From assembly GCF_900141755.1 (NCBI RefSeq), contig NZ_LT670844.1:5986501-6050500 (forward strand): a stretch of DNA of 64,000 nucleotides, given 5' to 3'. The DNA comes from Bradyrhizobium lablabi. Lineage in GTDB: Bacteria; Pseudomonadota; Alphaproteobacteria; Rhizobiales; Xanthobacteraceae. A model generated the notes under the pieces. The model saw only the letters and a program-made list of their open reading frames with translations, did not search any database and was not told the origin of the DNA. Positions 29,378 to 56,917 of this stretch are shown in pieces (position 1 is the first letter of the stretch; each line of letters begins with the position of its first letter). A program made the translations under genes and the position numbers.

Positions 29378-30090
29378 TACTTTCCCTTCAATTAAGATTC
29401 TTCAGGTGCCCGACCGCTGGCTGACAGGGCTTCAGCAACGATATCCTCCGTACCCTGACCGCCTACCAGTTGGTCGGAAGCTTGGGCCTCGAAGCCGCCT
29501 TGGATCAGGCCGCGGTGCTGTTATCGACAATGTGAACGCGGAAGTCACGTCTGGCAAAATCAAATTTTACCCAGCGACGTTGCAACAACGCTATGGGTCC
29601 GGCCGAGTCCGGTATTGGCGGATACTGTTGAAAAAGTCGAAAACCAAGGGGCTCCGAAAATCTCGCGAATGTTGAATGTTGGTGATCTCAGCCGCTGTAA
29701 GGCTCTGCAGAACCGATACGAGCGTCAGTGGTTGCCTTTGCGCTAATCGATGTGGTCCCTCCCATCGCAGCACGTGAGACGCACCAGTGGTCCTGAGAAT
29801 TTTCTGTCATCAGCCAAAAAGGACTTCTTCAACACTATCGGCGCAAAGCAGACCTTCATTGGGCTGATTTCGGCGAGCGCGTCGGCGGTCGTCCCTGCGC
29901 ATACACGAGGAATCTTGCGGCATAGACCGCGTCCAATTGACGTCCCTGGTGCCGAGACGCATCGTGTGCTGAGCCCACCCATTCGATCCAGAACTGCTTC
30001 GCGCATTTTTCGCAACGTCATCCGGAATTCGCCCGCGGTGCTACGATGCGCCCAACGAAGCGCAATCGGATCGTCAAAAAGGAGGCGCGA
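29378..30090. other. Intergenic region with a MITE-like element
   Basis: About 710 bases with no supported gene between the serine hydrolase start and the luxR pseudogene. It would hold the hydrolase promoter (near 29380-29450), the inverted-repeat element at 29616-29844, and unrecognised sequence from 29845 to 30060. Open frames here change with every lesion and lack ribosome-binding sites. Confidence 0.45.
29616..29844. mobile_element. MITE-like or decayed insertion element with terminal inverted repeats
   Basis: The 23 bases at 29616-29638 (core ATACTGTTGAAAAAGTC) and the reverse complement of 29822-29844 (core ATAGTGTTGAAGAAGTC) match at 18 of 23 positions. The 229-base interval has no transposase and no long open frame. 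It is either a non-autonomous element or the remains of an insertion sequence. No clear target-site duplication was found. It lies at the left edge of the mosaic secretion locus. Confidence 0.5.
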
Positions 30091-30890: not shown

Positions 30891-30900
30891 TCTGTTGAAT

Positions 30901-30914: not shown

Positions 30915-30954
30915 ATCGATCTGATGACCGGATTCATGCTGTTAATGCGCGCGC

Positions 30955-31040: not shown

Positions 31041-33200
31041 ATGGTCGATGCTGGAGGCGTCGCCACTGGTCAGCGCGCGCCTATGGCACCGCTGACGTCG
31101 GTCGATACGGGCCTCGGCTGCCTTGGGCTGGTTCTGGCGCTGTCCGGGGAAGCGTTCGATCTCGATCGGGCGCGCCGTGAGTTTTTGGCTGATGGCAGCC
31201 TCGCCAGCTGCGATGATCTGGTCCGCATCGCACGGGCGCAGGGCCTAAAAGCCCGCGTCAGCCGCTCCTCCGTCAAGCGGGTTCGGGCGATTTCGCTGCC
31301 GGTGATCGCACGCGGCCGCGACGGTGCATTCTTCGTGATCGGGCGCCTGATCGAGACCGGCGTGCTGGTCGGCCACGCCGGCGGTCCGCCGGTCGGCTGG
31401 ACCTTGGAACAGCTGGAGCGCGAATGGACCGGTGAGGTCGTGCTGGTCGCCAAGCGCGACCGGCTCCCCGGCGAGGTCGCGCGCTTCGGGCTGCGCTGGT
31501 TCATTCCGGTGATCAAACGGTTCTCGAAAGTGCTGGCCGAAGTGCTCGTCATTTCGGTGTTCATTCAGCTCGTGGCCCTGGTATCGCCGCTGTTCTTCCA
31601 GGTGGTGATCGACAAGGTGCTGGTGCATCGCGGGCTCACTACGCTGGAAGTGCTGGTGATCGGCCTTCTGGTCGTCAATGTCGCCGACGCGCTTCTGAAC
31701 TGGCTGCGCACCTACGCCTTTGCCCATACCACGAGCCGGATGGACGCCATTCTCGGCTCGCAGCTGTTCCGTCATCTGGTCGCGCTGCCGATCGGCTATT
31801 TCGAGAGCCGCGCCACCGGCCAGACCGTGGCGCGGGTGCGCGAACTGGAAAACGTGCGGCAGTTCATCACCTCTTCGGCGCTGACCCTGGTGATCGACGT
31901 GGTGTTCGGCCTGATTTTTCTTGCCGTGATGTTCTGGTACAGCCCGCCGCTGACGCTCGCGGTGGTGATCTCGATCCCGTTTTACGCGGTGATCTCGCTC
32001 GTGATCACGCCGGTGCTGAAGGCGCGCGTGCAGGAGAAATTCCAGCGCGGCGCCGCCAACCAGTCGCTGCTGGTGGAGAGTCTTGCCGGCATCCAGACGC
32101 TGAAGGCCTGCGCGGTCGAGCCGCAGATGCGCCAGCGCTGGGACGAGCAGCTCGCCGGCTATATCGGCGCGTCGCTGCGGGTGGTGACCTTGGGCGCGGC
32201 TGGCTCGCAGCTGGTCGGCCTCGTCAACAAGGTGACGAGCGCCGCGATCCTGTGGTTCGGCGCCCAGGCGGTGATCGGCAATCAGCTCACCATCGGCGAG
32301 TTCGTCGCCTTCAACATGCTGGCCGGCCAGATCAGCGGGCCGGTGCTGCGGCTAGCGCAGCTATGGCAGGACTTTCAGCAGTTCCGGCTCTCGATCGAGC
32401 GGCTTGCCGACATCATCGACACCCCGACCGAGCCCAACAGCATCAGCGCCAAGCAGAACCTGCCGCCGATCCAAGGGCACTTGCGATTCGAGAACATCGT
32501 GTTCCGCTATCGCGCCAGCAGCCCGGAAATCCTGCGCGACCTCTCGCTGGAGATCCGCGCCGGCGAGGTGGTCGGCATTGTCGGCCGCTCCGGCTCCGGC
32601 AAGTCGACGCTGACCAAACTGCTGCAGCGGCTCTACATGCCCGAGCGTGGCCGCGTCATGGTCGACGGCCTCGACATCGCGCTCTTGGATCCGGCCTGGC
32701 TGCGCCGGCAGATCGGCGTGGTGCTGCAGGAGAACGTGCTGTTCAACCGCTCAATCCGCGAGAATATCGCGCTGGTCGATCCCTCGATGCCGCTGGAGCG
32801 CGTGATCCACTCGGCCCAGCTTGCTGGCGCCCATGAGTTCATCCTCGAACTGCCGCATGGCTATGACACCATTCTGGAAGAGCGCGGCGCCAATCTCTCC
32901 GGCGGCCAGCGCCAGCGCATCGCGATTGCCCGGGCGCTGGTCACCAATCCGCGTATCCTGATCTTCGATGAGGCGACCTCGGCGCTCGACTATGAGAGCG
33001 AGCGGGTGATCCAGAGCAATATGCGCGCAATCTGCCAGGGCCGCACCGTGCTGATCGTGGCGCATCGGCTCTCGACCGTGCGCAGTGCCGACCGCATCCT
33101 GGTGATGGAGCGCGGCCAGCTCGCCGAGGCCGGCACCCATGATGCGCTGATGCATCATGACGGCCTCTACGCCAATCTCGTGCGCCAGGCGACGGGGTGA
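31041..33200 (+). CDS. Type I secretion ABC exporter (HlyB/PrtD-like) with degenerate C39-like domain
   Basis: A 719-residue exporter. Residues ~15-140 are a C39-peptidase-like domain: DTGLGCLGLVLALSG has Thr where active peptidases have the catalytic Cys, and FFVIGRL lacks the His. It should therefore bind rather than cleave the substrate, as in HlyB. Six membrane segments lie between ~165 and 430. The nucleotide-binding domain has Walker A GRSGSGKST (~515), signature [16 protein letters not shown] (~618), Walker B ILIFDEATSALD (~638) and switch His IVAHRLSTV. It exports unfolded substrates with C-terminal signals. The adaptor gene overlaps its stop. The likely clients are the large proteins encoded at 37131 and 42392. 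No TolC-like gene is present in the window. Confidence 0.94.
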   Translation: MVDAGGVATGQRAPMAPLTSVDTGLGCLGLVLALSGEAFDLDRARREFLADGSLASCDDLVRIARAQGLKARVSRSSVKRVRAISLPVIARGRDGAFFVIGRLIETGVLVGHAGGPPVGWTLEQLEREWTGEVVLVAKRDRLPGEVARFGLRWFIPVIKRFSKVLAEVLVISVFIQLVALVSPLFFQVVIDKVLVHRGLTTLEVLVIGLLVVNVADALLNWLRTYAFAHTTSRMDAILGSQLFRHLVALPIGYFESRATGQTVARVRELENVRQFITSSALTLVIDVVFGLIFLAVMFWYSPPLTLAVVISIPFYAVISLVITPVLKARVQEKFQRGAANQSLLVESLAGIQTLKACAVEPQMRQRWDEQLAGYIGASLRVVTLGAAGSQLVGLVNKVTSAAILWFGAQAVIGNQLTIGEFVAFNMLAGQISGPVLRLAQLWQDFQQFRLSIERLADIIDTPTEPNSISAKQNLPPIQGHLRFENIVFRYRASSPEILRDLSLEIRAGEVVGIVGRSGSGKSTLTKLLQRLYMPERGRVMVDGLDIALLDPAWLRRQIGVVLQENVLFNRSIRENIALVDPSMPLERVIHSAQLAGAHEFILELPHGYDTILEERGANLSGGQRQRIAIARALVTNPRILIFDEATSALDYESERVIQSNMRAICQGRTVLIVAHRLSTVRSADRILVMERGQLAEAGTHDALMHHDGLYANLVRQATG

Positions 33201-34690
33201 GCGCGATGGTGCAACCGATTCCGCTGCGTCCAGGCGACGCCTCACCCAAACCGGGGGCGCCGGCATCCAGCCCCCCGGCGCAGCCGCGACTCAAGGTCGT
33301 GCCGCGCCTCACCGCCGAGGAGCGCGAGTTTCTTCCGGCCACCATCGAGCTGATCGAGACGCCATTGTCGCCGACGCTGCGATTTACCTCCTGGGCGCTG
33401 TGCGGGCTGATCGCCGCCAGCGTGACCTGGGCCTCGCTGTCGCACATCGACATGGTCGCGGTCGCCGACGGCAAGGTGGTGCCGCTCGGCCAGGTCAAGG
33501 TGGTGCAGCCGCTGGAGACCGCGATGATCCGCGCCATCCATGTCGACGAGGGAGACCATGTCACGGCGGGCCAGTTGCTGGTCGATCTCGATCCGACCGA
33601 GGCGCGCGCCGATCTCGATGCCTTCGTTTACAATCGCGCACAAGCGGCGCTCGACGCCGAAGTGGCGCGCGTGCTGCTCAGCCGCGATCCCGACGAGCCG
33701 TTCCGCGGCCCGGACGACGCCGATCCGGAGCTCGTCGAGCAGAGCCACAGCCAGGCGCAGCGCGAGATCGAAAAGCATCTCGCCGCCATCGCCGGCTTCG
33801 AGGCCGACATCGCGCAAAAGGAAGCGGCGCTGCAATCCAACGACGCCCAGATCGAACGCGCCCGGCTGACCTTGCCGCTGCTGCAGGAAAAGAACGAGAC
33901 CGCCAAGGGCCTCTACGACAAGAAGTTCGGCACCAGGCCGCCGGTGCTCGACAGTGAGCAGCAGCTTGTCGAAAAGCGCGCCGAGCTGAAGACCGCCGAG
34001 CATAACGTGCACCAACTCGAGGCCGAGCGCCGCTCGATCCAGGCCAAACTCGCCGAGGCCAGGGCCGGCTACATGGCTGATGCCACCGACCGCCGCAGCA
34101 AAGCGCTGTTGAAGATCTCGCAGCTCAATCAGGACATCACCAAGGCGCGACAGAAGGAGAGCTACCGCCGCCTGGTGGCGCCGGTCGACGGCACCGTGCA
34201 GGGCCTCAAGATCCACACGTCAGGCGCCGTGGTCACCACCGCCGATACGCTGATGACGATCGTGCCCGACGGCACCGGCATCGAGGTCGACTGCCTGGTG
34301 CCGAACAAGGACATCGGTTTTGTCGGCGAGGGCCAGGATGTCGAAGTCAAGCTCGAGGCTTTTCCGTTCACCCGCTACGGCCTGGTGCAGGGGCGGGTGC
34401 GAAAACTCGGCCGCGACGCCGCCACCAATCCGAATGCCGCGCCACCCGGCTCGATGGCGGCGATGGCGCAGACGCCGCAGTCAGCCACCTCAAGCGCGCC
34501 CCCGGCGGAGCTCGCCTATCCCGCCAAAGTGACGCTGCTGCAGGACTCGATCCTGGTCGACGGCCGCCACGAAAAAATCCGCGCCGGCATGCGCGTCTCC
34601 GCCGAGATCAAGACCGGCGACCGCCGCGTGATCGAGTATCTGCTGTCACCAGTGGTGCAGGCGGTGCAGGAAGCGGGGAGGGAGAGATGA
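33197..34690 (+). CDS. Type I secretion membrane fusion protein (HlyD family)
   Basis: A 497-residue adaptor starting at GTG 33197 in a 4-base overlap with the exporter stop; ATG 33206 is an alternative. A Pro-rich cytoplasmic N-terminus is followed by one membrane segment (WALCGLIAASVTWASL, ~68-85). A lipoyl half-motif (VVPLGQVKVVQPLETAMIRA) and a long coiled coil (~140-310) come next, with the second lipoyl half and a beta-barrel domain (~310-420). The C-terminal VTLLQDSILVDGRHEKIRAG and GMRVSAEIKTGDRRVIEYLL is the family signature. It bridges the exporter and an outer-membrane channel. Its last ~55 codons recur as scars at four other places downstream, so this gene is one source of the local duplications. 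Confidence 0.93.
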   Translation: MSAMVQPIPLRPGDASPKPGAPASSPPAQPRLKVVPRLTAEEREFLPATIELIETPLSPTLRFTSWALCGLIAASVTWASLSHIDMVAVADGKVVPLGQVKVVQPLETAMIRAIHVDEGDHVTAGQLLVDLDPTEARADLDAFVYNRAQAALDAEVARVLLSRDPDEPFRGPDDADPELVEQSHSQAQREIEKHLAAIAGFEADIAQKEAALQSNDAQIERARLTLPLLQEKNETAKGLYDKKFGTRPPVLDSEQQLVEKRAELKTAEHNVHQLEAERRSIQAKLAEARAGYMADATDRRSKALLKISQLNQDITKARQKESYRRLVAPVDGTVQGLKIHTSGAVVTTADTLMTIVPDGTGIEVDCLVPNKDIGFVGEGQDVEVKLEAFPFTRYGLVQGRVRKLGRDAATNPNAAPPGSMAAMAQTPQSATSSAPPAELAYPAKVTLLQDSILVDGRHEKIRAGMRVSAEIKTGDRRVIEYLLSPVVQAVQEAGRER

Positions 34691-34939: not shown

Positions 34940-35710
34940 TTGCCCGGACAAACGGAGAGGGGCGACGTCGGATCGGGCAGTTCCGATCCAGATCTCAACG
35001 CCTGGATTCGTGCGTTCCGTTTGCTTCCGGCAGCGCCGGTGGCGGAAGCCGACGTTCTGGCATGGGTCGAAGGACCGCTGCGACGATTTTTTCCCTTTGA
35101 AAGATTTTTGGGCAGTTATGGAAGCTTATCGGGCGGTCGCATCCAGATGCGTTCATTGGTAACGAGCGGGCATACACCAGAGTTCCTGGCAGGCCTTGAA
35201 AGGACATTCGATCTGAAATCGCGTGGCTGCTTTGCGTGGTGGGTGTCCAATCGGAAGGCCTTCATTCTGGATAGAACCGGCGCGCTGGATGAATCGGGGG
35301 TACCAATTCCTGCAACCAGGAGCGAACTCGAGGAGATAGAGCGGTTCTCGCTGGGCGTCGTCGCGGCGCACGGCGTTATAGATACGTTTGTCAATGCCGG
35401 TACATATATCAGCTTTTCAGGTGTGCCGAGGACTGAGCCGAAGCGAACCCTGGCGGCGCTCGATCTCATCGCACCCGTTCTACACACGCTTTTCCTCCGC
35501 ACAAAACAAGCCGATCAATCAACGGTTGATCTGACGGCGTTGACGGATCGGCAAAGAGAATTGGTTGATCTCGCTCTCACGGGATTGTCCGACAAGGCGA
35601 TCGCCTTACGCTTGGCGATTTCCGATCATACGGTCGGGAACCATTTTCGCGCAATCTACGCCAAGCTCGGCATCAGCAAGCGCAGCCAGCTCATCGCCCT
35701 GCTGAAATAA
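34940..35710 (+). CDS. LuxR-family transcriptional regulator (intact copy)
   Basis: A 256-residue protein. No ATG fits; the TTG at 34940 is the first usable start, with GCAGGA upstream. The N-terminal ~180 residues have no recognised ligand domain; a conserved-looking stretch is EGPLRRFFPFERFLGSYGSL. The C-terminal LuxR/GerE helix-turn-helix is clear: LTDRQRELVDLALTGLSDKA, IALRLAISDHTVGNHFRAIY, and AKLGISKRSQLIALLK. It probably controls the secretion locus. The broken paralogue at 30091-30890 suggests that the operon together with its regulator was duplicated and this copy was kept. What it senses is unknown; there is no autoinducer synthase nearby. Confidence 0.85.
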   Translation: MPGQTERGDVGSGSSDPDLNAWIRAFRLLPAAPVAEADVLAWVEGPLRRFFPFERFLGSYGSLSGGRIQMRSLVTSGHTPEFLAGLERTFDLKSRGCFAWWVSNRKAFILDRTGALDESGVPIPATRSELEEIERFSLGVVAAHGVIDTFVNAGTYISFSGVPRTEPKRTLAALDLIAPVLHTLFLRTKQADQSTVDLTALTDRQRELVDLALTGLSDKAIALRLAISDHTVGNHFRAIYAKLGISKRSQLIALLK

Positions 35711-35718
35711 TCTCCCAT

Positions 35719-35732
35719 AGTACGAACGTGCT
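35719..35732. promoter_or_regulatory. Conserved 14-base imperfect palindrome, copy 2
   Basis: Exact copy of AGTACGAACGTGCT, 8 bases after the luxR stop codon and upstream of a defunct exporter start. Confidence 0.4.
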
Positions 35733-35852
35733 ATCGCCTCGATGGTCGAATTCATGCTGTTACATTGGAGCGCTCAACCGTAACGATGGGCGCGAGATTG
35801 CCGAAGTACAGCGGGCAGTCGTTTGGTCCGAAGCGATGTTGGGTTGGGGTCC

Positions 35853-36129
35853 ATGGTTGGTGCTGGGGGCATCGCCGACAATCAGCGCGCATCTGCGCCG
35901 ACGATGCCCGTCGATATGGGCCTCGGCTGCCTTCGGCCGGTTCTGGCGCTAGCTGCTTGTCCCGCCAAGGTGACGATGTTGCAGGACTGGATCCTGGTCG
36001 ACGGCCGCCACGAAAAAATCCGCGCCGGTGCGCGTCTCCGCCGAGATCAAAACCGGCGACCGTCGCGTGATCGAGTATATTCTCTCGCCCGTCGTGCAGA
36101 CGGTGAAGGAAGCGGGGAGGGAGAAATAA
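35853..36129 (+). pseudogene. Exporter-start/adaptor-tail deletion fusion, copy A
   Basis: Begins like the exporter gene (MVGAGGIADNQRASAP... then VDMGLGCLRPVLALA, compare 31041 onwards). It then jumps, at 35940-35960, into the last part of the adaptor gene (PAKVTMLQDWILVDGRHEKI). About 3.4 kb of exporter and adaptor is missing. A 2-base loss near 36029 ('ccggtgcgcgtc' for 'ccggcatgcgcgtc') breaks the frame before the adaptor stop. The same join is present at 39791-40070, so one deletion product was later duplicated. Confidence 0.85.
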
Positions 36130-36145: not shown

Positions 36146-36240
36146 GATGCTGCTTCTTCCTCGTACGGCGAAACGGCTAAAGCAAACGCCAGATGCAAAT
36201 TTTCAGCGACCGAAGCTAACCGGATTTGATGATCCGGCTA
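36146..36240 (+). pseudogene. Fragment of the partner-gene family
   Basis: Translated LLLPRTAKRLKQTPDANFQR continuing PKLTGFDDPAN aligns with ILPRRSKMLKRSSGMSFQR and PKLTGWDDPTW of the partner genes at 40306 and 41608 (their residues ~147-178). Both ends of the gene are missing. It follows an adaptor-tail scar, as the intact partner genes do. Confidence 0.7.
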
Positions 36241-36279
36241 ACCGCGCGCACCCTGGCGTTTACGTGGTGATCGCGCCAA

Positions 36280-39764: not shown

Positions 39765-39790
39765 TCTGAAGTGATGTTGGGTTGGGGTCC

Positions 39791-40070
39791 ATGGTGGGTG
39801 CTGGGGGCATCGCCGACAATCAGCGTGCATCTGCGCCGGTGACGCCCGTCGATACAGGGCTCGGCTGTCTTGGGCCGGTTCTAGCGCTAGCTCGCCTATC
39901 CCGCCAAGGTGACGCTGCTGCAGGACTGGATCCTGGTCGACGGCCGCCACGAAAAAATCCGCGCCGGCATGCGCGTCTCCGCCGAGATCAAGACCGGCGA
40001 CCGCCGCGTGATCGAATATATTCTCTCGCCTGTGATGCAGGCGGTGAAGGAAGCGGGGAGGGAGAGGTGA
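39791..40070 (+). pseudogene. Exporter-start/adaptor-tail deletion fusion, copy B
   Basis: Starts MVGAGGIADNQRASAPVTPV as in copy A, then joins the adaptor tail at 39885-39905 ('gctagctcgcctatcccgcc'). In this copy the two parts are out of frame. The region from 39646 to 40070 is very similar to 35708-36129, so the whole segment was duplicated after the deletion had formed. It ends with the adaptor stop at 40068-40070. Confidence 0.85.
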
Positions 40071-40212
40071 ATTTTTGGACCCGAGAAAAATGCGGACTAA
40101 CGAGCGTTTTGCGACAGTCTCATTGGCTCAAACGGATTTGTTCGAACGGTTTTTGCGTCGGTTGCAACGCCGGATCATCCCTTGAGGCAACGTGTAATCT
40201 GAGATTATCGCG

Positions 40213-41100: not shown

Positions 41101-41372
41101 TTTCAACAATCGGAGTCTGAGCTATTCCTTTGGAGGCAGCCTCTACGGTACGGGCATCGGCGTACTGAACGTTTATCCTTGGGCAGAAGGTGCTTATCGG
41201 TCTTACCTCGGCAGCGCCGATACGGTAACGATCGCGCCTGCTCTCGAAAAGGCAATTACAAACGCCGGGCATGCGCGTCTCCGCCGAGATCAAGACCGGC
41301 GACCGCCGCGTGATCGAATATTTGCTCTGGCCGGTGGTGCAGGCGGTGAGGGAAGCCGGGAGGGAGAGATGA
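41093..41372 (+). pseudogene. Stub of a secreted-protein gene fused to an adaptor tail
   Basis: Begins MSDFNNRSLSYSFGGSLYGT like the giant gene at 42392 and follows it for about 59 codons (to ITNAG). At ~41267 it enters the adaptor tail (catgcgcgtctccgcc...), out of frame, running to the adaptor stop at 41370-41372. The join falls on a short shared 'gccgg' sequence. The rest of the secreted protein is gone. The shift leaves a junk C-terminus reading to about 41518. Confidence 0.85.
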
Positions 41373-41514
41373 GTTCTTGGCCCTGGAAAGAAGTCTGGAC
41401 TAACGAGCGTCTTGCGGCAGTCTCATTGGCGGAAGCGGATTTGTTCGAACGGTCTTGCGTCGGATGCGGTGTCGATGCAGCCCTTGGGGCAACGTGTAAT
41501 CTGAGATCATCGCG

Positions 41515-48300: not shown

Positions 48301-51300
48301 CACGACCACCAGCGCCGACCGGAACACCGTCACGGTGCAGCGCATTCTCAATGGCGCCACCAGCACCCTGGTGACGCAGACCAACGCCGACGGCAGCGTC
48401 GTCGCCACGGTGTCGGACTTCAACGCGGACGGCTCGCTGCGCGACCGTTCGGTGACCACCACCAGCGCCAATGGCCTGTCGGTCACGACGCAACGTGACA
48501 CCAAGGGCGCCGGTACGTTCGATACGACGCGGACCGACGTCACGGTGCTCAACGCCGACGGCAGCCATACCGAGACGGTGACCGACTTTGCGTCCGGCGC
48601 CAAGTTGGATCAGATCGTCAGCACCACCAGCGCCAACGGGCTCGGCACGGCCACGCAATACGATCTCACCGGCGCCGGTACCTTCAGCGAGACCAAGACC
48701 GACGTGACCGTCCTCAACGCCGACGGCAGCAAGACCGAGACCGTAACCTACACGGGCGCGAGCGGTGCGCTAATTTCGCGCTATGTCGCGACCACCAACG
48801 CCAACGGCCTGTCGATCACCAAGCAATGGGACACTACCGGCAGCGGCAGCTTTGACCAAACCACCACCGACGTCACCGCGATCAATGCGGACGGCAGCAG
48901 AACTGAAACCGTGACGGCGCTGAGCGCCAGCGGAGGGTTAATCTCCAAATCGATCATCACCACCAGCGCCGACGGCCTGTCACAGACCAAGCAGTTCTCG
49001 ACATCAGGCAATCAGCAGCTCAACCAGACCCAGACCGACGTCAAGCAGCACAACGCCGATGGCAGCACCACGGAGACGCTCTCGGATCTGAACGCCGATG
49101 GCAGCCTCAGGGATCGCGCGGTCACCGCCACCAGCGGCGACGCAATGACGGTCACGACGAGCCGCGACAGCAATGGCGACGGCGTCGTCGACCAGACCGA
49201 TGTGATCCAGCGCCACGTCGACGGCAGCAGCGTCGAGACGGTGACGGATTTCGCCGCCGGCACGATCACGGGCCGCACCGTCCTGACCACCAGCGCCGAC
49301 GGCCTGACCAAAACCACGCAGCAATATCTTGCCGCGACCGGTGCGATCACACGGACACGCAGCGACGTGACGGTCGTCAATCTCGACGGCAGCCGCACCG
49401 AAACCATCGTCGACACCAACGCCGATGGCAGCCTTCACCAGAAGGGCGTCATGACGACCAGCGCCGACGGGCGCACCAAGACCCTGCAGGAGGACACCAC
49501 CGGGGCCGGGTTCTTCGACCATACCGAGCTCACCACCGTCGCAGCCGACGGCAGTTCGACCACGGTGGCGAAGGATTTCAATGCCGCCGGCACCATGGTC
49601 GACCAGACCGTTGCGTCGGTCAGCGCCGACGGCCGCTCGAAAACCGTGCAGACCGATTCCAAGGGGACAGGAGTCTTCGACCGCACCGAGATCACCCGAA
49701 CCAATATCGACGGCACCACGGTCGCCACCGCGACCGATCACAACGCCGACGGCTCGGCCAAGGATCGTCAGCTCATCACCACCAGCGCCGACGGCCGGGT
49801 CAAGGTGATCCAGACCGATACCACCAATTCCGGGACCTTCGACCTGGTGCAGACCAGCACCACGAAAATCGACGGCAGCCGCAACGTGGTTGCCGCCAAC
49901 GCCAACGGGACCTCCGACGAACGCGATTACGACGCCGTCGGCAATCTCGTGAGCGAGACGCTCAAATCCAGCGATGGCAGCACCCTCAAGACGACCTACG
50001 CGTTCGGCATCACGACGAGCACGGTGTTCACGGATGCGCGGGGCAGCACCGGCACGGTGGGTTCCGCCGGGATCGGCTCGTCCTATGGATCGTTCCTCGG
50101 CGGCAATTCGCTGGCCGCCAATCTCACCAAGTCGACGCTGATCGGCATGCTCGGCCAGGCCATCGCGCAATCGAGCGCCGTCCGCGACTTGAGCCAAGCA
50201 CTCACGGACGCCACGGGAGGCACCGGCTCGGCGCTCGACGGCAGCCTCGGCAATGCCACCCAGGCCGCTGGGGGGCCGCCGGTCGCCACCGCAAACGCGA
50301 TGATCGCGTCGCTGTTGATGACCGAGGCCGCCCAGGCTCTGGGACTGAAGGGTTTCGCCGGCACCGTGTTCACCATCACCGGAGCGGCAATCACCAAGCA
50401 GCTGATCACCAATATTGAGAATATCGTGGCCAGCGGCCAGGATCTGGCCACCGCGTCGGTGGATCAGCTATTTGCCGGCTTCAACGCCGGGTTCTTTGTC
50501 AATATCGGAGCGGCCGTCGGGGGAGCCTTCGGCAGCTCGCTCGGCTCGGAGCTCGTTCCCGCGACCAACCCGGAAGGCGCCATCGGAGGTCAGATCGGCA
50601 GCACGGTTGGCGGAGACATCGGAGCTACTCTCGGATTCGCGGCAGGAGGCCCCATCGGTATGATCGTCGGAGACTTCGTCGGCTCGTTCCTGGGCGACGT
50701 TCTCGGCACATTGTTCGGGGATCTGTTCGGTAACGACGGACCGCCGTCGGCATCGGTGACACTCGGGGTCAGCGGCGGCGCGATCAACATCGTGGGCTCG
50801 TATTCCGACCAAGGCGGCAGTCCGAGCGTGTTCATCCCGATCGCGACCGCGGTCGACAACACCCTCAATTCGCTCATCGGCATGACCGGTGCCACGATCA
50901 CTTCGCTGGTTGGTCCAGCTGTGAGCGGCGCGGCGTCGTCGTTCCTGGGAAACCAGACCGGCGTGACGTTCTCGTTCCAGGGCAACCAGGCCGGCGTGTA
51001 CATTCCCGGTGCGGGCTACGAGGCGCTGCCGACCAGCGGCGATACCAGCGCTGCCTGGACCAAGGCGGCCCAGGACAGCGTCATGGCGCTGCTCCAGGAG
51101 GCGCAGCTTGCGGGCGGCGACCCCATCGTGATGACCGCGCTCGTCGCGGCGATGCAACGGGACGCCAACATTGGAGCGATCAGTTCCGACCTGCAGGTCG
51201 CCAAGGATTATGAGACCTATCTGACCAACACCACGGCCATCAATCAGCTGATCGAGCTCAATCCGGACAGCGCCTTCGCGGCCGGCTGGGAGCTGACGCT

Positions 51301-54300
51301 GCTGCGCGCCGAAGAGCTCGGCATCACCCAAGTTCCGGACGAGCCCGGCTGGAAGGCAAATCTGGTCAACGGCACGGGTGCCACCGGGGACACGTCCCTG
51401 GCCCACGAGAGCGTCTACGAAAACAACGGCATCCTGGTCGAAGAGATTACCTTCAACAAGAACGGCAGCCGGACCTACAACCAATATTACAAGAACCTGA
51501 CCGTCTCGCTCAGCAACGTCATCCTAGAAGTTCCCAATGCGTCGACTTGGACCATCACCGGCAACGGCGACACGGTCGACGCCGGCCGCGGATCGACCGT
51601 GAATCTTACGGGCAACAATAACAACGTCATCGTCAGCGGACCCAAGAGCTTGGTCCAACTGTCGGGCACCGGCAACTCCGTATCGATCAGTGCCGGTTCG
51701 GTTGTGGCCGCTGCCGGAAGCAGCCTATCGGTCCATGGCGACAGCGACGTCATCTCGGGCGGATCGAACGTTGCGCTCAGCGTCGCAGGGTCCGCAGACG
51801 CGGTCACGCTGAGCAACGGCACCATCGCGCTCGCCGCCAATTTCAATGGCGCAATCACCGGAGATAGCAACCAGATCAGCACCGGGACTTCGGTGGCGCT
51901 AACGCTCAAAGGCAATAGCGACGCGATCGCCGCCGGCAATGGATCGACGCTGACGATCGCCGGCACCGGGGACACGACCTCCGCCGGGAACGCCGCGACC
52001 GTGACGATCGACGGCTCCAGCGACATCGCGGCGGCGCTCGACCAGTCGACAATTGTCGTCAATGGCAATCAAGATACCACCACCGCCGGAAACGCGGCTA
52101 ACGTCACGATCACCGGCACCGGCGACACCACCACCGCGCTCGACCATTCGACCATAACGATCCATGGCGATGGCGATAGCACCACTGGCGGAATTGCCGC
52201 CAATATCCAGGTTGTCGGCGCAAAGGATGCCGTGTCGGCGGGCTCCGGCTCGTCAGTGTCGGTCAACGGAGACGACGGACAGATCACCGCAGGCGATAAT
52301 TCCATCGTCACCGCGACCGGCGCGCGGGAGACAGTCTCGGCGGGCAATGGCGTTCAGGTCACGCTGACCGGCTCGGGCGGCTCGGTTACCGCTGCCGCCA
52401 ACGTCTCGCTCAACCTCAAGGGCGATACGACAGCCATCAAGGCGGGCAGCGGCGCTGCGATCGTGATCGCTGGCGCTTCCGACAAGGTTTCGGCAGGCGA
52501 CGCGGCGAACCTCACCATCACCGGGAATAATGATACCGGCACGCTCGCCGACTACGCCACCGTGACGGTGAACGGCACTGGCGCCAGCATCATTACCGGA
52601 AGCAAAGCACATGTCGCGATCAGCGGCACCGGCAATGCGGTTGTCGCGGGCAGCGGCGCGGTCATCACCGTCAAGGGCGACCAGAACAGCGCCAGCGGCG
52701 GCGACGGCTCGTCGCTGACTGCGCAAGGATCGAGCGAAACGCTCGCGATCGGCAACAGCGCGACCGCGACGCTGACGGGCTCCGGCGGTTCGATCGCGGG
52801 CGGCAAGAGTGTCTCCGTCACCATCGCCGGCGACCATGACAGTGCCACACTCGGCAACAACGCGATCGCCACGGCGACCGGTACCGGTGAGACCGTTACC
52901 GGTGGCCTGCAATCCAATCTTGTGGTCAATGGCGACGGAGCCGCGATCGGCGCCGGCGACTACTCGACCGTGACGCTCACCGGATCGAGCGGCACGGTTA
53001 CGGCAGGCGCGTTCGCGGCCGTCACCGTCACCGGCGCTTCCGATGCGGTCACGGTCGGATCGAGCGGCAAAGTCGTGCTGAATGGTGCGTCGGATTCGGT
53101 CACCTCGACAGGTTCTGGCGTGTCGCTCGATGTCGACGGCTCGAGTGCCAGTGCAACGCTGAGCGGAAGCACGCTGACCTTGGAGAATAATGCTTCCGCC
53201 GCCGTTACCGGCATCGGCGATATTTTCGCCCAAAAATCCAATACCGGTCTCGCCGTGACCGGTGCGGGCAGCGCCGTCGATGTCATCGGCGCCGGCAATT
53301 CTACCGCGATCAGCGCCGGCACCATCACCGTTGAATCGGGCGCCGGCACTACCGCGACCGGCGACAGCGACGCGGTGACGCTGCGCTCCAACGCCTCGGT
53401 GACGATGACGGGTGCCCATGACTCGGTCGACATCACCGGCACCGGCACCAGTGCCACAACCAGCAATGCCAATGTGCGGTTCGAGAACAACACCGGCGGC
53501 ACACTAACCGGCTCGGCTGATACCGTGAACGTCGGCAGCAATGTGGCGATCAACCTGGTCGGCAACCAGTCCAGCCTGTCGGTCACCGGCAGCGGAACGT
53601 CGATCAACGTCACCACCGGCAGCGTCAATGACTCGATCGTCATGACCCAGGGGTCGCTGGCGCTTGGCGCCAACAGCACGGCTGCGATTGCCGGCGATGG
53701 CAACGCCATCAGCGAAAGCTCCGGCGATACCGTCGTTGCGTCCGGCAAGCAGGACGCCGTGACTATTAGCGGCACTGGCAATGTCATCGCCATCTCAAAT
53801 GCCACCATCACGCTGGCAGACGGCGCCGGCGCGATCATCGTCGGATCGAATGATACCGTCATTTCAGGCGCCAACGCCAATATCACCCTGATCGGCAACA
53901 ACAATGCCGCGACCGCCAACGGCTCCGGCACCACGCTCGACATCGCCGGCAACAATGATAGCGTGGCGATCAGCAACGGTTCGGTGATCCTGGAGCCCGG
54001 CAGCAATGACTCGATCACCGGCTCGAGCAACAATGTCAAGCAGGGCACGGGTCTTACCCAGGCAGACAATGCTGTTCTGACGGCTGCCGGCAATAACGGC
54101 ATCCTGGTCGCCGGCAATAATGCGCTCGCCAACGTGACCGGCGACCATAATCTGGTCGCCGTCGGCAACAGCTCGGTGGTCAACGTCAGCGGCGCTTCCA
54201 ACACGATCTCGGCAGGAGATCTTTCGACGGTCAACGCGACTGGCAACACCAATCTGGTGCAGGTAGGCGATTCATCGACCCTGCTGATTTCCGGCCAAAC

Positions 54301-56917
54301 CAACACGGTGGTGGCCGGCGCGCAGGCGACGATCACCGAAGGCGGCTCCGGCAACATCGTCACCGCGACGACGGGGGCCAAGGGCGTGCTGAGCGGGACC
54401 AAGGACCATCTGACGCTTGGCGCGACCGCGACCGTGGACGTCACCGGTACCAACGATGTCCTGACGACGGGGGCTTCGGGCACCATCACCGTCGATGGTG
54501 GTTCGAACCAGGTCAGCGCCGGCACCGGTTCGAGCGTGACGGTCAACAGCAGCAGCAATACGGTCTCGGCCGGCGATAGCGCCGTGATCACGGCGAAGGG
54601 CTCGTCCAACACCCTCACGAGCGGCCTGGCATCGACATTGACATTGACCGGCGACTGGAATAGCGCCACCGCCGGGGCCAATTCGAACGTTGCGCTCAAC
54701 GGCGCGCACGAGACGCTAGGCTCCAGCACATCCGCATCCGCGTGGCTTACCGTGATGGCGGCCGGAGCGTACGACGTGGCGACGGTCGGCGACAATGCGA
54801 CCCTTACCACGACCGGCAGCAATGCGACGATCACCGCAGGTGCAAACGCAGGCGCGACCGTCGGCGGTAGCGCCAACAGCGTTACCACAGGCGACACTGC
54901 TCACGTTGGTTTGGCCGGCAGCGGCAACACCGTTGTCACCGGCAAATCCGCCAACGCGACCGTGACCGGATCGACCGACAGCATCACGGTCGGCACTGGC
55001 TCGACCCTGATCGTCTCCAGCAATACCAACACGGCCAAGGCCGGCGACGGCTCCAATGTCACCGTGAGCGGCGGCTCCAACACCGTCACCACCGGTGCGA
55101 CCTCGACGCTGTCGGTGACCGGCTCCGGCAACCAGAGCACGGCCGGTTCCACATCGACCGTCTCGATCACCGGCAATACCGACACAACCGTGGCCGGACC
55201 TGGTTCCACCGTGACGATCGGCGGTACCTCGAATACCACGACAGCCGGCGATGGCTCGACCGTCACCGTGAACGGCTCGGGCGATGGCGTGACCACCGGC
55301 GCCAACTCGCAACTGACCGTGAACGGCAATTCCGACACCAGCACCGCAGGGTTTAAATCCACGGTGTGGGTGAACGGCGCGACCGACAAGACGACGACCG
55401 ACTACTCGTCATGGCTGCAAGTGGCCGGGACGTCCGATACCAGCACGGTCGGAACAAACTCGACCGTGATTGTCAAAGGCGCTGGCAACTACACGACCGC
55501 TCTGGCGAACTCGACACTGACGGTTTCCGGTGACACCAATACGATCAACGCCGCGACCGGATCGTCTGTCACCATCGCCGGCAAGTCGGCCACTACGACA
55601 CTCGGCGACAACGGGACTCTCGTCCTCAACGGCTCCAATGCCAATTCCACTGCGGGCGCCAATGTCACGCTTTCGGTCGGCGGAACCGGTAACACCACCA
55701 ACACCGGCAACGGAGCGCATGCGACCATCACCGGACCCAGCAATTCCACGACCGTCGGGTCGTCTTCGTCGATGACGGTCTCGGGTGATACGAACACCGT
55801 CGTCGCCGGTGCCAGCTCGACGGTGACCGCGAGTGGCGCGTCCGACAACACGACGGTCGGAGATCATTCGAGCCTTACGATTTCGGGTGCGGCTGATACT
55901 TCCACGGCAACGAATTATGTAACACTGTGGGTCAATGGCACCAGCGACACTACAACGGCCGGCGTGGGCAGCAACATCACCGTGAACGGCAGCAAAGATT
56001 CGACCACGTCCGGAGCGTCCACAACGATGCTTGTGGCGGGCAATTCCAACACCGGCAATATCGGGGCGAGTTCGAACCTGACGGTGAACGGCGGCAGCAA
56101 TAACGATTATCTCGGAGATAGCTCGGTCGCCCATATCAACGGATCTTCCAACCTGACCTCATATCTCTCCACCGGGAACTACGAGACACTGGTGATCGCC
56201 GGTAATTCGAACACCAGCTATGGAGGATATGGTTCAAGCGCCACCGTCAGCGGCGCGAGCAATTATACGGTACTCGGGAACGCGTCGTCTCTCACTGTGA
56301 CAGGCAGTTCCAATACGAGCCAATCTGGAAACGGCACGTCGTTCAACATCAATGCGTCGTACAACAACACCACCCTCGGCAGTTCTTCGGGCGGCTATGT
56401 TTACGGGTCCGGCAACACTACCTCAACCGGCGCTTCCAGCACGATGTACATCATGGGAAGTTCGGAAGGCAGCACTATCGGTAACAGCTCCAACGTCTAC
56501 GTGTACGGCTCAAGCAATTCGACCACGCTAGCGGCCTATGACGCCTTGTATCTGTATGGCAACTCCAACAACACCAGCGCTGGATCCGGGTTGTCAGCCA
56601 CGGTCAACGGCAGCAGCAATTATACCAACGCAGGCGACTACGCGAGAATTACGATGAATGGCAATTCAAATACCTCAATTGCCCAAAATGCTTCCGATAT
56701 GTGGTTCTATGGCTCGAACAATTCGGGCTATGCCCAGCTCAGCGCGTGGATGGATATGTATGGCTCGGGCAATTATGCAGCGGACAGCAACGGCTCGACG
56801 ACGCGCTATGTCATGTACAGCAATGATCACGGCTGGGTCGGCCCTTCAGGATTGTTGATACCCACCTACGGTTCCTCAGGATATGAAATCTCTACGGGAA
56901 ATGGCGTTTCGTTCTGA
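42392..56917 (+). CDS. Giant type I secretion substrate: beta-solenoid repeat protein of 4,841 residues
   Basis: Start ATG 42392 with GAAGAGGA upstream inside the partner gene. Domains, approximate residues: 1-160 unique N-terminus; 190-305 Gly/Ala glycine-zipper segment; 310-540 Ser/Asn/Pro-rich linker; 545-740 RTX-protein-type module (PVVLDLTGHGINITQLGSS, EF-hand-like DTNHDGKLDSRD near 625); 745-2515 about 31 repeats of ~56 residues; 2520-2780 Ala/Gly-rich with a second glycine-zipper run (GGQIGSTVGGDIGATLG); 2780-3045 mixed alpha/beta; 3050-4830 about 100 repeats of 17 residues. There is no N-terminal signal peptide. The end (GYEISTGNGVSF) could be part of an uncleaved C-terminal secretion signal. 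Asp-rich repeats suggest calcium-dependent folding outside the cell. Surface adhesin, filament, or carrier of a toxic N-terminus are all possible. Confidence 0.9.
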   Translation: MSDFNNQNLTYSFGGSLYGTGVGVLNVYPWGEGAYRSYLGSAPTVTITTSLRDAIANAGMDFDPVGRRADPILRTDPYYSNTSIGRQGNAATIDARNVVTSQYGRNVTNLRMDLAGFPQNRVTLPSGEIVRIDLSYRTFSLWSGGTEHYDEVKAVSDLTGEVKNITQAEQYGRAISGVRGASSSMRAVGTVLRNGGAVVGAVGFGLDGYFTYGQISQQLAAGDTSGAGLSGAQFLGRGGGGLAGGAALGGLLAGAELFGTAGAVAGTVEPGLGNILGGFAGGIVGGIAGAYLGEAGVTALYNSIVSTPSLGRQQPSPQTSLNNRWGNFAPVGWSASSASRASISGASDGWLAGSALSPSSAEHLKGGDVSFDTTPLNGTIVDPASVGAVLLGPAVSYDSNGVTRLHIYGGSRDGYHDETVGNTVYSVPDGKTLSPPDSPLANGATDPTIPQTANGVAPSDTVINSSTLNTQNGQMAFASPDGPSGTTANWPAYFPNNVGSPTGTDAPTVLIQTASPPADSGIISGDNNQIQDFSGDNVPTGSGNPVVLDLTGHGINITQLGSSSQFHDMTGDGYQNRTAWAGVGNGVLAIDLKGTGKIDQPNEYQFTNWDPTATSDMQALRDVFDTNHDGKLDSRDANWSKFGVLVTNADGTTTFETLTQLGITSINLTTDNNKNVLADGSVISGQTTFTKADGTTGAAADVSLAYDANGYATSQTVTKNADGSTTIDVKASNPDGSLANETVTTTSADGASRTIKFNHSGSGIFDQTQTIVNTANADGSTTNTIANFDATGALSNRTVTTTSPEPAPAQAGGQTVTIARDLHGNGRTDQTELHVTNADGSKTITVSDLNADGSLRDRTVSTTSQDGLTKLLQTDSTGAGVFDQTRSDVTVVAADGSRSETVKDLYQNGSLRDSSVTATSADGRTKTTQSDLDGNGTIDLTTASAIVVAADGSSVTTQTDRNADGSLRDQTVTTLSADGLSKTVARDLDGNGTFDITTSDVTIANADGSKTETVIDRNANGSLRDQTTTVRGADGRSRTVQADTNGGGIIDHTETIAVAADGSSVDTVSDLNADGSLRDRTVTSVSASGLATTTQQDLTGSGTFDRTHADVIAVNADGSRTETVVDSSANGALLDRSVTTTSANGLSITTQSDTIGSGSFNRTRLDVTTLNADGSKTETVSDLNADGSLHDRTVVVTSADRLTVSTAIDANGDGHVDQIKTQTTSVAGVVTTDVADLNLDGSLRDRTVTTTSANGLSVTTQSDSTGAGSFDRTRSDVTTLNADGSRTEWVVDFNSNGSVKDRTVTTTNANGLSIATQQDVSGSGTFNQDRTDVTVLNTDGSRTETVTDINSNGSVKDITVTTTSANGLSITTQQDVSGSGTFNQTRDDVTLLNADGSRSEWVTDLNGNGSARDQTFTTISASGNSVLIFRNTNGAGAFNQTEADALIANGSKVHAVSDFNADRTLRDRLVVTTSASGLSTTTQRDTTGAGTFNETRTDVTVLNADGSRTETVADQSANGTLLDKKVVTISANGLSNTKQEDTTGAGSFDLTETDVTALNSDGSNTETVTDTNANGSLRSKAVTTVSSDRRTTTKQIDSHGVGHFDEIQTRVLNADGSVTSTVADYSANGSLKDRTVTTTSANGLSITTQQDVSGSGSFNQIRSDVTVLNADGSRTERVTDLNSNGSVKDQTVTTTNANGLSIAAQQDVSGSGTFNQDRTDVTVLNTDGSRTETVTDINSNGSLKDQTVTTTSANGLSITTQQDVSGSGSFNQTRDDVTLLNADGSRSEWVTDLNGNGSARDQTFTTISASGNSVLIFRKTNGAGAFNQTEADALIANGSKVHAVSDFNADGTLRDRLVVTTSASGLSTTTQRDTTGAGSFNQTDTDIVVLNADGSRSETVTCLNGDGTLRYKTVTATSANGLSKTMQWDDRGSGLFDLTESDVVALNADGSKSETVTDLNADGSLRAKVTTTTSADRNTVTVQRILNGATSTLVTQTNADGSVVATVSDFNADGSLRDRSVTTTSANGLSVTTQRDTKGAGTFDTTRTDVTVLNADGSHTETVTDFASGAKLDQIVSTTSANGLGTATQYDLTGAGTFSETKTDVTVLNADGSKTETVTYTGASGALISRYVATTNANGLSITKQWDTTGSGSFDQTTTDVTAINADGSRTETVTALSASGGLISKSIITTSADGLSQTKQFSTSGNQQLNQTQTDVKQHNADGSTTETLSDLNADGSLRDRAVTATSGDAMTVTTSRDSNGDGVVDQTDVIQRHVDGSSVETVTDFAAGTITGRTVLTTSADGLTKTTQQYLAATGAITRTRSDVTVVNLDGSRTETIVDTNADGSLHQKGVMTTSADGRTKTLQEDTTGAGFFDHTELTTVAADGSSTTVAKDFNAAGTMVDQTVASVSADGRSKTVQTDSKGTGVFDRTEITRTNIDGTTVATATDHNADGSAKDRQLITTSADGRVKVIQTDTTNSGTFDLVQTSTTKIDGSRNVVAANANGTSDERDYDAVGNLVSETLKSSDGSTLKTTYAFGITTSTVFTDARGSTGTVGSAGIGSSYGSFLGGNSLAANLTKSTLIGMLGQAIAQSSAVRDLSQALTDATGGTGSALDGSLGNATQAAGGPPVATANAMIASLLMTEAAQALGLKGFAGTVFTITGAAITKQLITNIENIVASGQDLATASVDQLFAGFNAGFFVNIGAAVGGAFGSSLGSELVPATNPEGAIGGQIGSTVGGDIGATLGFAAGGPIGMIVGDFVGSFLGDVLGTLFGDLFGNDGPPSASVTLGVSGGAINIVGSYSDQGGSPSVFIPIATAVDNTLNSLIGMTGATITSLVGPAVSGAASSFLGNQTGVTFSFQGNQAGVYIPGAGYEALPTSGDTSAAWTKAAQDSVMALLQEAQLAGGDPIVMTALVAAMQRDANIGAISSDLQVAKDYETYLTNTTAINQLIELNPDSAFAAGWELTLLRAEELGITQVPDEPGWKANLVNGTGATGDTSLAHESVYENNGILVEEITFNKNGSRTYNQYYKNLTVSLSNVILEVPNASTWTITGNGDTVDAGRGSTVNLTGNNNNVIVSGPKSLVQLSGTGNSVSISAGSVVAAAGSSLSVHGDSDVISGGSNVALSVAGSADAVTLSNGTIALAANFNGAITGDSNQISTGTSVALTLKGNSDAIAAGNGSTLTIAGTGDTTSAGNAATVTIDGSSDIAAALDQSTIVVNGNQDTTTAGNAANVTITGTGDTTTALDHSTITIHGDGDSTTGGIAANIQVVGAKDAVSAGSGSSVSVNGDDGQITAGDNSIVTATGARETVSAGNGVQVTLTGSGGSVTAAANVSLNLKGDTTAIKAGSGAAIVIAGASDKVSAGDAANLTITGNNDTGTLADYATVTVNGTGASIITGSKAHVAISGTGNAVVAGSGAVITVKGDQNSASGGDGSSLTAQGSSETLAIGNSATATLTGSGGSIAGGKSVSVTIAGDHDSATLGNNAIATATGTGETVTGGLQSNLVVNGDGAAIGAGDYSTVTLTGSSGTVTAGAFAAVTVTGASDAVTVGSSGKVVLNGASDSVTSTGSGVSLDVDGSSASATLSGSTLTLENNASAAVTGIGDIFAQKSNTGLAVTGAGSAVDVIGAGNSTAISAGTITVESGAGTTATGDSDAVTLRSNASVTMTGAHDSVDITGTGTSATTSNANVRFENNTGGTLTGSADTVNVGSNVAINLVGNQSSLSVTGSGTSINVTTGSVNDSIVMTQGSLALGANSTAAIAGDGNAISESSGDTVVASGKQDAVTISGTGNVIAISNATITLADGAGAIIVGSNDTVISGANANITLIGNNNAATANGSGTTLDIAGNNDSVAISNGSVILEPGSNDSITGSSNNVKQGTGLTQADNAVLTAAGNNGILVAGNNALANVTGDHNLVAVGNSSVVNVSGASNTISAGDLSTVNATGNTNLVQVGDSSTLLISGQTNTVVAGAQATITEGGSGNIVTATTGAKGVLSGTKDHLTLGATATVDVTGTNDVLTTGASGTITVDGGSNQVSAGTGSSVTVNSSSNTVSAGDSAVITAKGSSNTLTSGLASTLTLTGDWNSATAGANSNVALNGAHETLGSSTSASAWLTVMAAGAYDVATVGDNATLTTTGSNATITAGANAGATVGGSANSVTTGDTAHVGLAGSGNTVVTGKSANATVTGSTDSITVGTGSTLIVSSNTNTAKAGDGSNVTVSGGSNTVTTGATSTLSVTGSGNQSTAGSTSTVSITGNTDTTVAGPGSTVTIGGTSNTTTAGDGSTVTVNGSGDGVTTGANSQLTVNGNSDTSTAGFKSTVWVNGATDKTTTDYSSWLQVAGTSDTSTVGTNSTVIVKGAGNYTTALANSTLTVSGDTNTINAATGSSVTIAGKSATTTLGDNGTLVLNGSNANSTAGANVTLSVGGTGNTTNTGNGAHATITGPSNSTTVGSSSSMTVSGDTNTVVAGASSTVTASGASDNTTVGDHSSLTISGAADTSTATNYVTLWVNGTSDTTTAGVGSNITVNGSKDSTTSGASTTMLVAGNSNTGNIGASSNLTVNGGSNNDYLGDSSVAHINGSSNLTSYLSTGNYETLVIAGNSNTSYGGYGSSATVSGASNYTVLGNASSLTVTGSSNTSQSGNGTSFNINASYNNTTLGSSSGGYVYGSGNTTSTGASSTMYIMGSSEGSTIGNSSNVYVYGSSNSTTLAAYDALYLYGNSNNTSAGSGLSATVNGSSNYTNAGDYARITMNGNSNTSIAQNASDMWFYGSNNSGYAQLSAWMDMYGSGNYAADSNGSTTRYVMYSNDHGWVGPSGLLIPTYGSSGYEISTGNGVSF
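44625..49945 (+). repeat. About 31 tandem 56-residue (168-bp) repeats inside the giant gene
   Basis: A typical unit reads TTTSANGLSVTTQSDSTGAG, SFDRTRSDVTTLNADGSRTE, then a linker such as VVDFNSNGSVKDRTV. Fixed positions are NADGS-TETV, D-N-NGS, and S-GLS. Several units carry EF-hand/dockerin-like loops (DANGDGHVDQ, DSNGDGVVDQTD, DLDGNGTIDL), so calcium binding is plausible. Units drift from 50 to 57 residues. Long open frames on the opposite strand are a by-product of the repeat codon pattern. Confidence 0.9.
46265..48019 (+). repeat. Recent internal duplication within the 56-residue repeats
   Basis: Bases ~46265-46855 and ~47429-48019 are nearly identical at an offset of exactly 1,164 bases (388 codons, about seven repeats). 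The few differences include 'agatataactg' versus 'agatcaaactg' and 'cggaacacc' versus 'cggaaaacc'. The identity far exceeds that between neighbouring repeats, so the array expanded recently by block duplication. Confidence 0.85.
51538..56860 (+). repeat. About 100 tandem 17-residue (51-bp) beta-solenoid repeats
   Basis: Consecutive units such as STLTIAGTGDTTSAGNA, ATVTIDGSSDIAAALDQ and STIVVNGNQDTTTAGNA keep an exact 17-residue register for long stretches. Consensus: S/A-x-V/L-T-V/I-x-G-x-x-D/N-x-T/V-x-A-G-x-x. Two short strands per turn, each with Thr/Val alternation, predict a slender parallel beta-solenoid with Thr ladders. Towards the C-terminus Tyr appears at fixed positions (VYVYGSSNSTT, LYLYGNSNNTS). 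A few 18- to 23-residue units interrupt the register near residues 3080-3150 and 3540-3900. Confidence 0.9.

Follow-up and report, generated by a model that had tools for sequence, protein, structure and literature searches.

A type I secretion locus of Bradyrhizobium lablabi that appears to be built from 5' partner and N-terminus cassettes

A stretch of 64,000 nucleotides from the Bradyrhizobium lablabi genome (the window; positions 5986501-6050500 of a single contig of 7,909,999 bases) carries a type I secretion locus that ends in the gene for a giant secreted protein of 4841 aa (42392..56917; this and all features below lie on the plus strand unless stated). The giant contains a toxin-like N-terminal domain, a glycine-rich stretch, a central module resembling the self-processing module (SPM) of FrpC, NADGS repeats and DUF3060 repeats. 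Its start is overlapped by 8 nt by a smaller gene, here called the partner (P0006, 41608..42399). We consider the locus to be probably a type I-secreted polymorphic toxin system with 5' immunity-toxin cassettes, in which the partner would be the immunity protein and the N-terminus the toxin. It appears to be roughly the mirror image of tail-swapping bacterial toxins, with the front end and the neighbouring protective gene exchanged jointly among species. We infer toxicity, immunity, secretion, nuclease activity and cassette recombination in the living strain.

Exchange of partner and N-terminus among related loci

A search with the central module over the genus gave matches in 41 of 262 genomes, and 20 regions were fetched (L numbers denote loci and G numbers genomes). 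In 12 of the 20 (L085-L089, L091-L094 and L098-L100), an hlyB-hlyD pair was found upstream of the secreted-protein gene on the same strand; the N-terminus of the secreted protein usually differs among these 12 loci, and the central module stays. The downstream gene is a giant (an open reading frame (ORF) of >2700 codons within the fetched stretch) at L085-L087, L089 and L091-L094, and the toxin gene is usually preceded by another gene, mostly of about 170-430 codons. As the first-pass annotation of this DNA had stated, the variable part lies on the 5' side, unlike in contact-dependent inhibition (CDI) and Rhs systems.

In all-against-all blastp, the N-termini were unrelated outside the last ~40 residues before the module, apart from small groups (L098/L099/L100, with L099 lacking the toxin part; L096/L097; L089/L091) and matches in linker or glycine-rich stretches (L084/L085/giant/P0004; L085/L092; L093/L094; L041 with the giant and with L098-L100). 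Among 16 candidate partner ORFs, some of them doubtful, only those of L098 and L100 (83%) and of L086 and L100 (20%, E 7e-4) were alike.

The clearest cases come from homologous loci. Compared with G099 (HlyB 83%, HlyD 73% identical), the window DNA aligns from a point close to the hlyB start up to the final base of hlyD (34691), shows no homology across the partner and N-terminus, and resumes at the central module (window 44024). Among genomes G015, G095 and G245 (L098, L099 and L100), the pairs G015-G245 and G095-G245 are 92-94% identical in HlyB and 94-96% in HlyD. An AHH N-terminus (78% over 249 aa) and a partner (83%) are common to G015 and G245. G095 has neither of them, yet the last 219 residues of its toxin match those of G245 at 83% identity. 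Between G095 and G245 (HlyB 92%, HlyD 94%), DNA similarity ends before the partner, returns past the toxin N-terminus and ends beyond the toxin gene, unlike that between G015 and G245, which continues beyond it. Partner and N-terminus are thus swapped among three loci with 92-94% identical HlyB, and G099, G095 and G245 bear out the earlier proposal that these two parts are swapped while the exporter and central module beside them stay constant. In G245, the region upstream of the working pair contains an orphan Imm11 gene with a toxin stub, then a frame homologous to the G095 partner (69% protein identity), then a toxin-start stub. By sequence comparison, G245 repeats the pattern of the window with other families, and partner and N-terminus have been exchanged between species; switching inside the window locus itself is what we infer.

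No hlyB-hlyD pair was in view at L090, L095, L096 and L097, and at L101-L103 the module lies near the C-terminus and a different exporter pair lies on the opposite strand. L084 (G065) starts at a contig end, with luxR (LuxR 78% over 144 residues) and the RTX acyltransferase gene hlyC (HlyC 4.4e-29) upstream; in its positions 1-2000 (contig C34), hlyC stands between luxR and the partner, and luxR is flanked on its far side by a partial hlyC copy (89%, 330 bp). At L088 (G125, 5769-15855), hlyB, hlyD and the toxin gene are each split into separate frames, as in a decaying locus or through sequence errors. At L096 (G043), a second copy (90%) of 246 bp from the secreted-protein gene lies ~3 kb upstream, beyond the preceding gene (5665-5908 and 8905-9148). 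At L094, a metallopeptidase-like N-terminal frame (10594-11370; HEFDH, seen by eye) overlaps the module frame (11352 on; both positions on the reverse complement of the locus), a split toxin gene; the metallopeptidase-like frame gave no Pfam match. L097 (6622-12231) encodes a large protein with a peptidase-like start (HEMTH, by eye) and an SPM-like module near the C-terminus, with no exporter in view. In the B. lablabi genome itself, L053 (2060000-2079900) has the layout of the window: hlyB, hlyD, a 265-codon gene with a signal-like start and a giant with a distant SPM match (35%).

Architecture of the window locus

The region was compared with itself by blastn and examined at 30-45 kb, which resolved into four stacked versions of a single order, luxR-hlyB-hlyD-partner-secreted protein. 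The luxR, exporter (hlyB), adaptor (hlyD), partner and secreted-protein blocks have been duplicated and deleted at recurring breakpoints, a recurrence already described in the first-pass annotation. The repeats comprise luxR with the first ~100 nt of hlyB (30161-31141 and 34980-35950, 80%), the central module (38901-39548 and 44006-44653, 94.5% over 649 bp) and the partner unit (39962-41273 and 41263-42571, 86% over 1.3 kb). The hlyD tail at 34509-34698 matches 35951-36124, 39889-40079, 39553-39625 and 41263-41380 at 89, 94, 86 and 90%, respectively, so that the further adaptor-tail scars reported before were recovered. With E values of 1e-16 or lower for these repeats, chance is excluded.

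Unit A (30064-34690) begins with luxR copy 1 (30064..30887; GerE PF00196, 4.3e-12), which is frameshifted, its homology passing from frame 2 to frame 1 in tblastn with luxR copy 2 and the G065 LuxR. It holds the sole intact exporter and adaptor of the locus, both above cut-off: the HlyB-type ABC exporter, a type I secretion permease/ATPase (31041..33200; TIGR01846, E 1.6e-294; 83% identity to the G099 HlyB), and the HlyD adaptor (33197..34690; TIGR01843, E 5e-110), whose last ~190 nt form the left arm copied across the locus. One intact exporter-adaptor pair and two luxR copies, one of them broken, are present, as had been noted.

Unit B (34940-39548) contains the open luxR copy 2 (34940..35710), a fusion (35711..36124; deletion 31141|34509) that joins the luxR 3' flank and the start of the exporter gene to the adaptor tail, and a partner fragment covering family residues 148-181 in tblastn (36153..36254). 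These are followed by the divergent partner P0126 (36345..37043, minus strand; 36% identity to P0006 at residues 1-140), the predicted immunity protein of this unit, oriented away from the toxin gene. The truncated toxin gene (37131..39548) has a variable N-terminus with a D/ExK motif in common with the giant and ends in a copy of the central module (38901..39548), the right arm; the secreted gene is cut at 39548, and its ORF continues to 39764. After an adaptor-tail scar (39553..39625), unit C (39627-41269) consists of a luxR tail with an exporter-adaptor fusion (39627..40079, 93.4% to 35689-36124), the open orphan partner P0005 (40306..41100; 80% identity to P0006), also a predicted immunity protein, and a 59-codon toxin 5' stub (41093..41269). 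Unit D (41263-56917) comprises the adaptor-tail scar at its left end (41263..41380), P0006 and the intact giant with its own right arm (44006..44653). Unit B retains both arms, the hlyD tail and the module; the right arm has been lost from unit C.

The truncated gene, the stub and the giant were thus found as first described, and two other descriptions needed correction. The two fusions had been called identical; they have a common breakpoint, but are 93.4% identical over 439 bp, so a single deletion was probably copied later. Three intact partners and two fragments had been counted; three open partners and one clear fragment stand, and the second fragment amounts to a 19-residue match at 36329-36273 (E 0.09) inside a 57-bp, 82% repeat.

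Synonymous divergence (dS) is 0.13 for the central module and 0.70 for luxR (codons after 60). Between the partners of units C and D, dS is 0.18 at codons 1-170 and 1.3 at codons 171-264, and the stub is again at ~90% DNA identity; the abrupt jump inside the partner gene indicates a mosaic. Judged from these values, the copies of the locus differ in age or were recombined. Upstream of the locus, candidate tyrosine integrase and recombinase ORFs were seen by eye (18065-19438, minus strand, and 9412-11103), suggesting a mobile island.

The strongest rival, which we still consider unlikely, is that one operon was simply duplicated in tandem and decayed through short-homology recombination, leaving copies that are dead remnants with no role in exchange. 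All four units can be derived from a single ancestral order luxR-hlyB-hlyD-partner-substrate, the fusions, stub and scars appear non-functional, and the junctions lie at short similar stretches. Moreover, a second hlyD tail was found in 0 of 15 fetched loci with HlyD, so the scars are particular to the window, which favours this rival and weighs against cassettes. However, the orphan partner at 40306 is open, with a ratio of nonsynonymous to synonymous divergence (dN/dS) of 0.28 relative to its copy, the stretch enclosed by the same two arms is precisely where the relatives differ, and the sister locus in G245 keeps an orphan homologue of the working partner of another species.

Known toxin and immunity families in the same position

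Fourteen N-termini (10 and a further four) and 10 partners were scanned against Pfam. Four of the 14 N-termini reached the cut-off: AHH nuclease at L098 and L100, Phage_lysozyme2 at L092 (1.1e-14) and NlpC/P60 at L090, exactly at the cut-off. The L086 N-terminus was far under the cut-off for AHH (E 0.19) and that of L097 just under it for a Hint-type domain; the others gave no match or matches at chance level. Imm11 partners were found at L086 (G099, 1.6e-56) and L100 (G245, 1.8e-14), and the L090 partner has RCC1 repeats. AHH and Imm11 are polymorphic-toxin families, as described in Pfam.

In the partners of cell-wall-type N-termini, an early segment is strongly hydrophobic (KD17 2.29 at L090 and 2.16 at L092), and lower values were obtained for Imm11-type partners (0.95, 0.87 and 1.42 at L086, L100 and L098, respectively) and for the two full-length partners of the window (0.64 and 0.64). 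The partners of L088, L093 and L096, where toxin types were not assigned, are hydrophobic too (2.81, 2.62 and 2.08), and a relation between partner hydrophobicity and toxin type is offered as a pointer only. P0126 has an early-segment KD17 of 1.43.

These families bear on two further explanations. The partner could be a secretion chaperone, an activator or a surface anchor for the N-terminus rather than an immunity protein, as its overlap with the start of the giant might suggest; we regard this as less likely again than decay. Imm11 occupies the same slot in G099 and G245, the partner families change along with the N-terminus, homologues of the partner often stand alone, which suits immunity genes better than chaperones, and the two full-length partners of the window have no hydrophobic N-terminus. 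Still less probable is an adhesin role for the giant, with N-terminal binding domains that can be interchanged. Adhesins of the LapA/BAP type use type I secretion, and the giant has long repeats and DUF3060 stretches, but nuclease, lysozyme and NlpC/P60 domains are among the N-termini found at this position, and Imm11 proteins are among the partners. An assembly artefact is very improbable, since the copies are 78-94% rather than nearly 100% identical and the genome is one contig, even though long repeats are prone to misassembly.

Partner and N-terminal domain of the window

The partner of the window belongs to a family of 167 database proteins at E <= 0.001, including the two of the window. 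Residues 1-180 are more conserved, with a mean identity to P0006 per 30-residue block of 0.58-0.77, compared with 0.37-0.46 thereafter. The structure model of the partner was confident (predicted local distance difference test (pLDDT) 88.5) and had no clear PDB match. No similarity to FrpD was detected for it, and P0005 and P0006 have no hydrophobic segment within the first 110 residues (maximum KD17 0.64), hence no FrpD-like signal peptide or lipidated cysteine. Three partner homologues (P0014, P0075 and P0102) have an N-terminal extension that resembles a membrane segment by eye.

The N-terminal domain was aligned with two database relatives and with P0004, L109 and L107 (alignment A4, six sequences). 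A D..ExK motif is conserved in 6/6 sequences, its Asp, Glu and Lys belonging to the 15 invariant of 192 ungapped columns. Glu and Lys are also invariant in alignment A2 (five rows), where another Asp column is invariant. We regard this motif as PD-(D/E)XK nuclease-like, and the N-terminal toxin of the window is possibly a nuclease of this kind. No sequence relative of the domain was found in the PDB.

Partner searches yielded 18 distinct partner loci. The N-terminal profile of the window matched 3 of 18 partner-bearing genomes, with the partner just upstream in all three. An Imm11 protein 84% identical to that of G099 stands solitary in G101, and because of this the solitary partner loci are read as orphan immunity genes; at one of them, L037, a distant HlyD-like gene lies within about 4 kb. 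In Methylobacterium sp. BTF04 (L108, 9236-11596), three successive partner domains, two of them fused in a 538-residue protein, precede a toxin start with an in-frame stop; by their sequence these are possibly stacked immunity genes.

Central module and giant protein

The central module is homologous to the SPM of FrpC (PDB sequences 6sjw, E 1.3e-7, and 6sjx, E 2.3e-7). According to the available text on the Neisseria protein, the FrpC module cleaves an Asp-Pro bond upon calcium binding (PMC7078468). At the position of the scissile Asp, the giant has Asn and the truncated copy has Glu, and no Asp-Pro scissile bond was found at the N-terminal end of either module copy of the window. Among 22 rows of relatives, Asp is absent in 17 and present in three (L101-L103); the other two gave no reading. 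As the Asp is replaced in the window copies and most relatives, we name the module SPM-like and claim no cleavage. A Pfam scan of the giant found DUF3060 as the sole family, and nonapeptide RTX calcium-binding repeats (PF00353; accession as given in the accessible part of PMC6759196) had no match at E <= 1.

Points that weigh against the immunity-toxin reading

Several results, besides the confinement of hlyD-tail scars to the window, count against the reading of the locus as a cassette-based toxin system. Pfam and NCBIfam gave no match for the partner or N-terminus of the window, and any family hit among 34 scanned members of the partner family was confined to a single member; 10 of the 14 scanned N-termini fell below every Pfam cut-off and 7 of the 10 scanned partners had no convincing Pfam family. 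The invariant Asp depends on the alignment (D113 in A2, D133 in A4), and the structure model of the N-terminus is of low confidence (pLDDT 36.6), so the nuclease call is made on the motif in six sequences. Other genes lie between exporter and partner at L093 and L098-L100. The proteins of G015, G095 and G245 are only 1042-1173 residues long and end in the module, instead of being giants with long repeats. Clear orphan immunity genes were recognised only in the window and L100, and L084 (hlyC) and L096 carry other kinds of duplication. Finally, at 15 of the 18 partner loci no gene with an SPM and no hlyBD pair of this type lies next to the partner. The first-pass annotation had held that homologues found mostly without secreted-protein genes would refute its proposal; taken literally, that is what was found, and partners do not always stand beside a type I substrate.

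Comparison with known systems

The locus has two marks of a polymorphic toxin system. The toxin module varies and the delivery part is conserved, as seen in the N-terminal blastp comparisons and the differing modules at homologous loci, and standalone orphan cassettes are present (units B and C in the window, and orphans in L100). As for an adjacent immunity gene, two relatives have Imm11, and the partner of the window, a candidate for this role, matched no family. The toxin domain is not at the C-terminus as in CDI and Rhs. Two-partner secretion and pretoxin-VENN domains are marks of CdiA in CDI (cdiBAI). The window differs in using HlyB/HlyD, and Pfam found neither feature in the giant, only DUF3060.

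As far as the accessible text describes them, CDI and Rhs share with the window a large delivery protein, a variable toxin module and an adjacent immunity gene (a predicted one in the window), together with arrays of orphan modules in which parts of the main gene are retained, and exchange between strains (PMC3150448). Their orphan modules, with functional immunity established, lie downstream of the main gene (Poole 2011, PMC3150448). Unlike in the window, where everything lies 5' and the exporter is HlyB/HlyD, the toxin in those accounts is C-terminal, immunity genes and orphans are downstream and cdiB is used. The polymorphic toxin survey of Zhang 2012 (PMC3482391), in its available portions, likewise describes variable toxin domains, immunity genes and standalone cassettes, but with C-terminal toxin domains and types II, V, VI, VII, PVC, PrsW and MuF as routes; type I is mentioned there just as the route of large RTX toxins.

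The first-pass annotation knew of no described system with this arrangement, which is too strong. In the excerpts available, a paper on the Stenotrophomonas type IV secretion system proposes FrpC as a type I antibacterial effector and FrpD as its immunity protein, and states that 221 proteins resemble the effector Smlt3024, nearly all through the N-terminal region and all but six with RTX/haemolysin-type calcium-binding motifs (PMC6759196). The class is therefore not wholly new. In FrpD-FrpC of Neisseria meningitidis, as in the window, the partner gene precedes a type I-secreted large protein with an N-terminal domain followed by the SPM (PMC5233953, PMC7078468, PMC6759196), and cassette exchange is not part of the published description in the text available. 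The window differs from that pair in a partner with no lipoprotein-type start or detected FrpD similarity and a module lacking Asp-Pro. Min-Wnt, as far as its source is accessible, also places a toxin N-terminal to RTX repeats with presumed type I export, but is one domain family for which that text describes no cassette array (PMC12419801). Cdz of Caulobacter, in the available account, is an alphaproteobacterial system of contact-dependent killing through type I secretion with glycine zippers and an immunity protein, but its toxins have 84 and 86 residues, unlike the giant (PMC5380434). In the open-access literature, as far as its text was accessible and with subscription literature outside the scope, no description of type I polymorphic toxins with a 5' cassette array was found.

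Proposed mechanism and implications

In the proposed mechanism, HlyB/HlyD would export the giant, whose first ~200 residues would be the toxin, followed by the glycine-rich hydrophobic stretch, the calcium-binding FrpC-SPM-like module and thousands of repeat residues. The repeats would display the giant, and the toxin would enter a neighbour, perhaps aided by the glycine-rich stretch; the gene overlapping the start of the giant would encode the immunity protein that protects the producer. Units of immunity gene and toxin N-terminus would be duplicated, truncated and exchanged through shared arms, the hlyD tail on the left and the central module on the right; in the relatives with no second hlyD tail (15 of 15 loci), the left arm would be something else. 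Units B and C, upstream of the working pair, would be orphan cassettes like orphan cdiA-CT/cdiI, but upstream rather than downstream, and such spare units would keep immunity and may offer donors having both arms in common with the working unit.

A bolder possibility, which we put forward tentatively, is a mirror-image CDI, in which the type I locus would serve for expression and a bank of cassettes would stand on its 5' side. The immunity-toxin units kept there would recombine into the start of the giant through the hlyD end and the SPM-like module, and a module with no self-cleavage site would be kept as the joint between a changeable warhead and a constant stalk. The toxin specificity of strains would then change over ecological time, and orphan immunity genes would preserve resistance to former kin.

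Type I secretion has so far been known mainly for RTX toxins and adhesins. If the proposal is true, many giant proteins of soil bacteria, a large class that is so far unannotated, would gain a function, and FrpC/FrpD of Neisseria a testable role. The rule of C-terminal variation in polymorphic toxins would become a consequence of the exporter used, and the central module would mark where to seek new toxin and immunity families.
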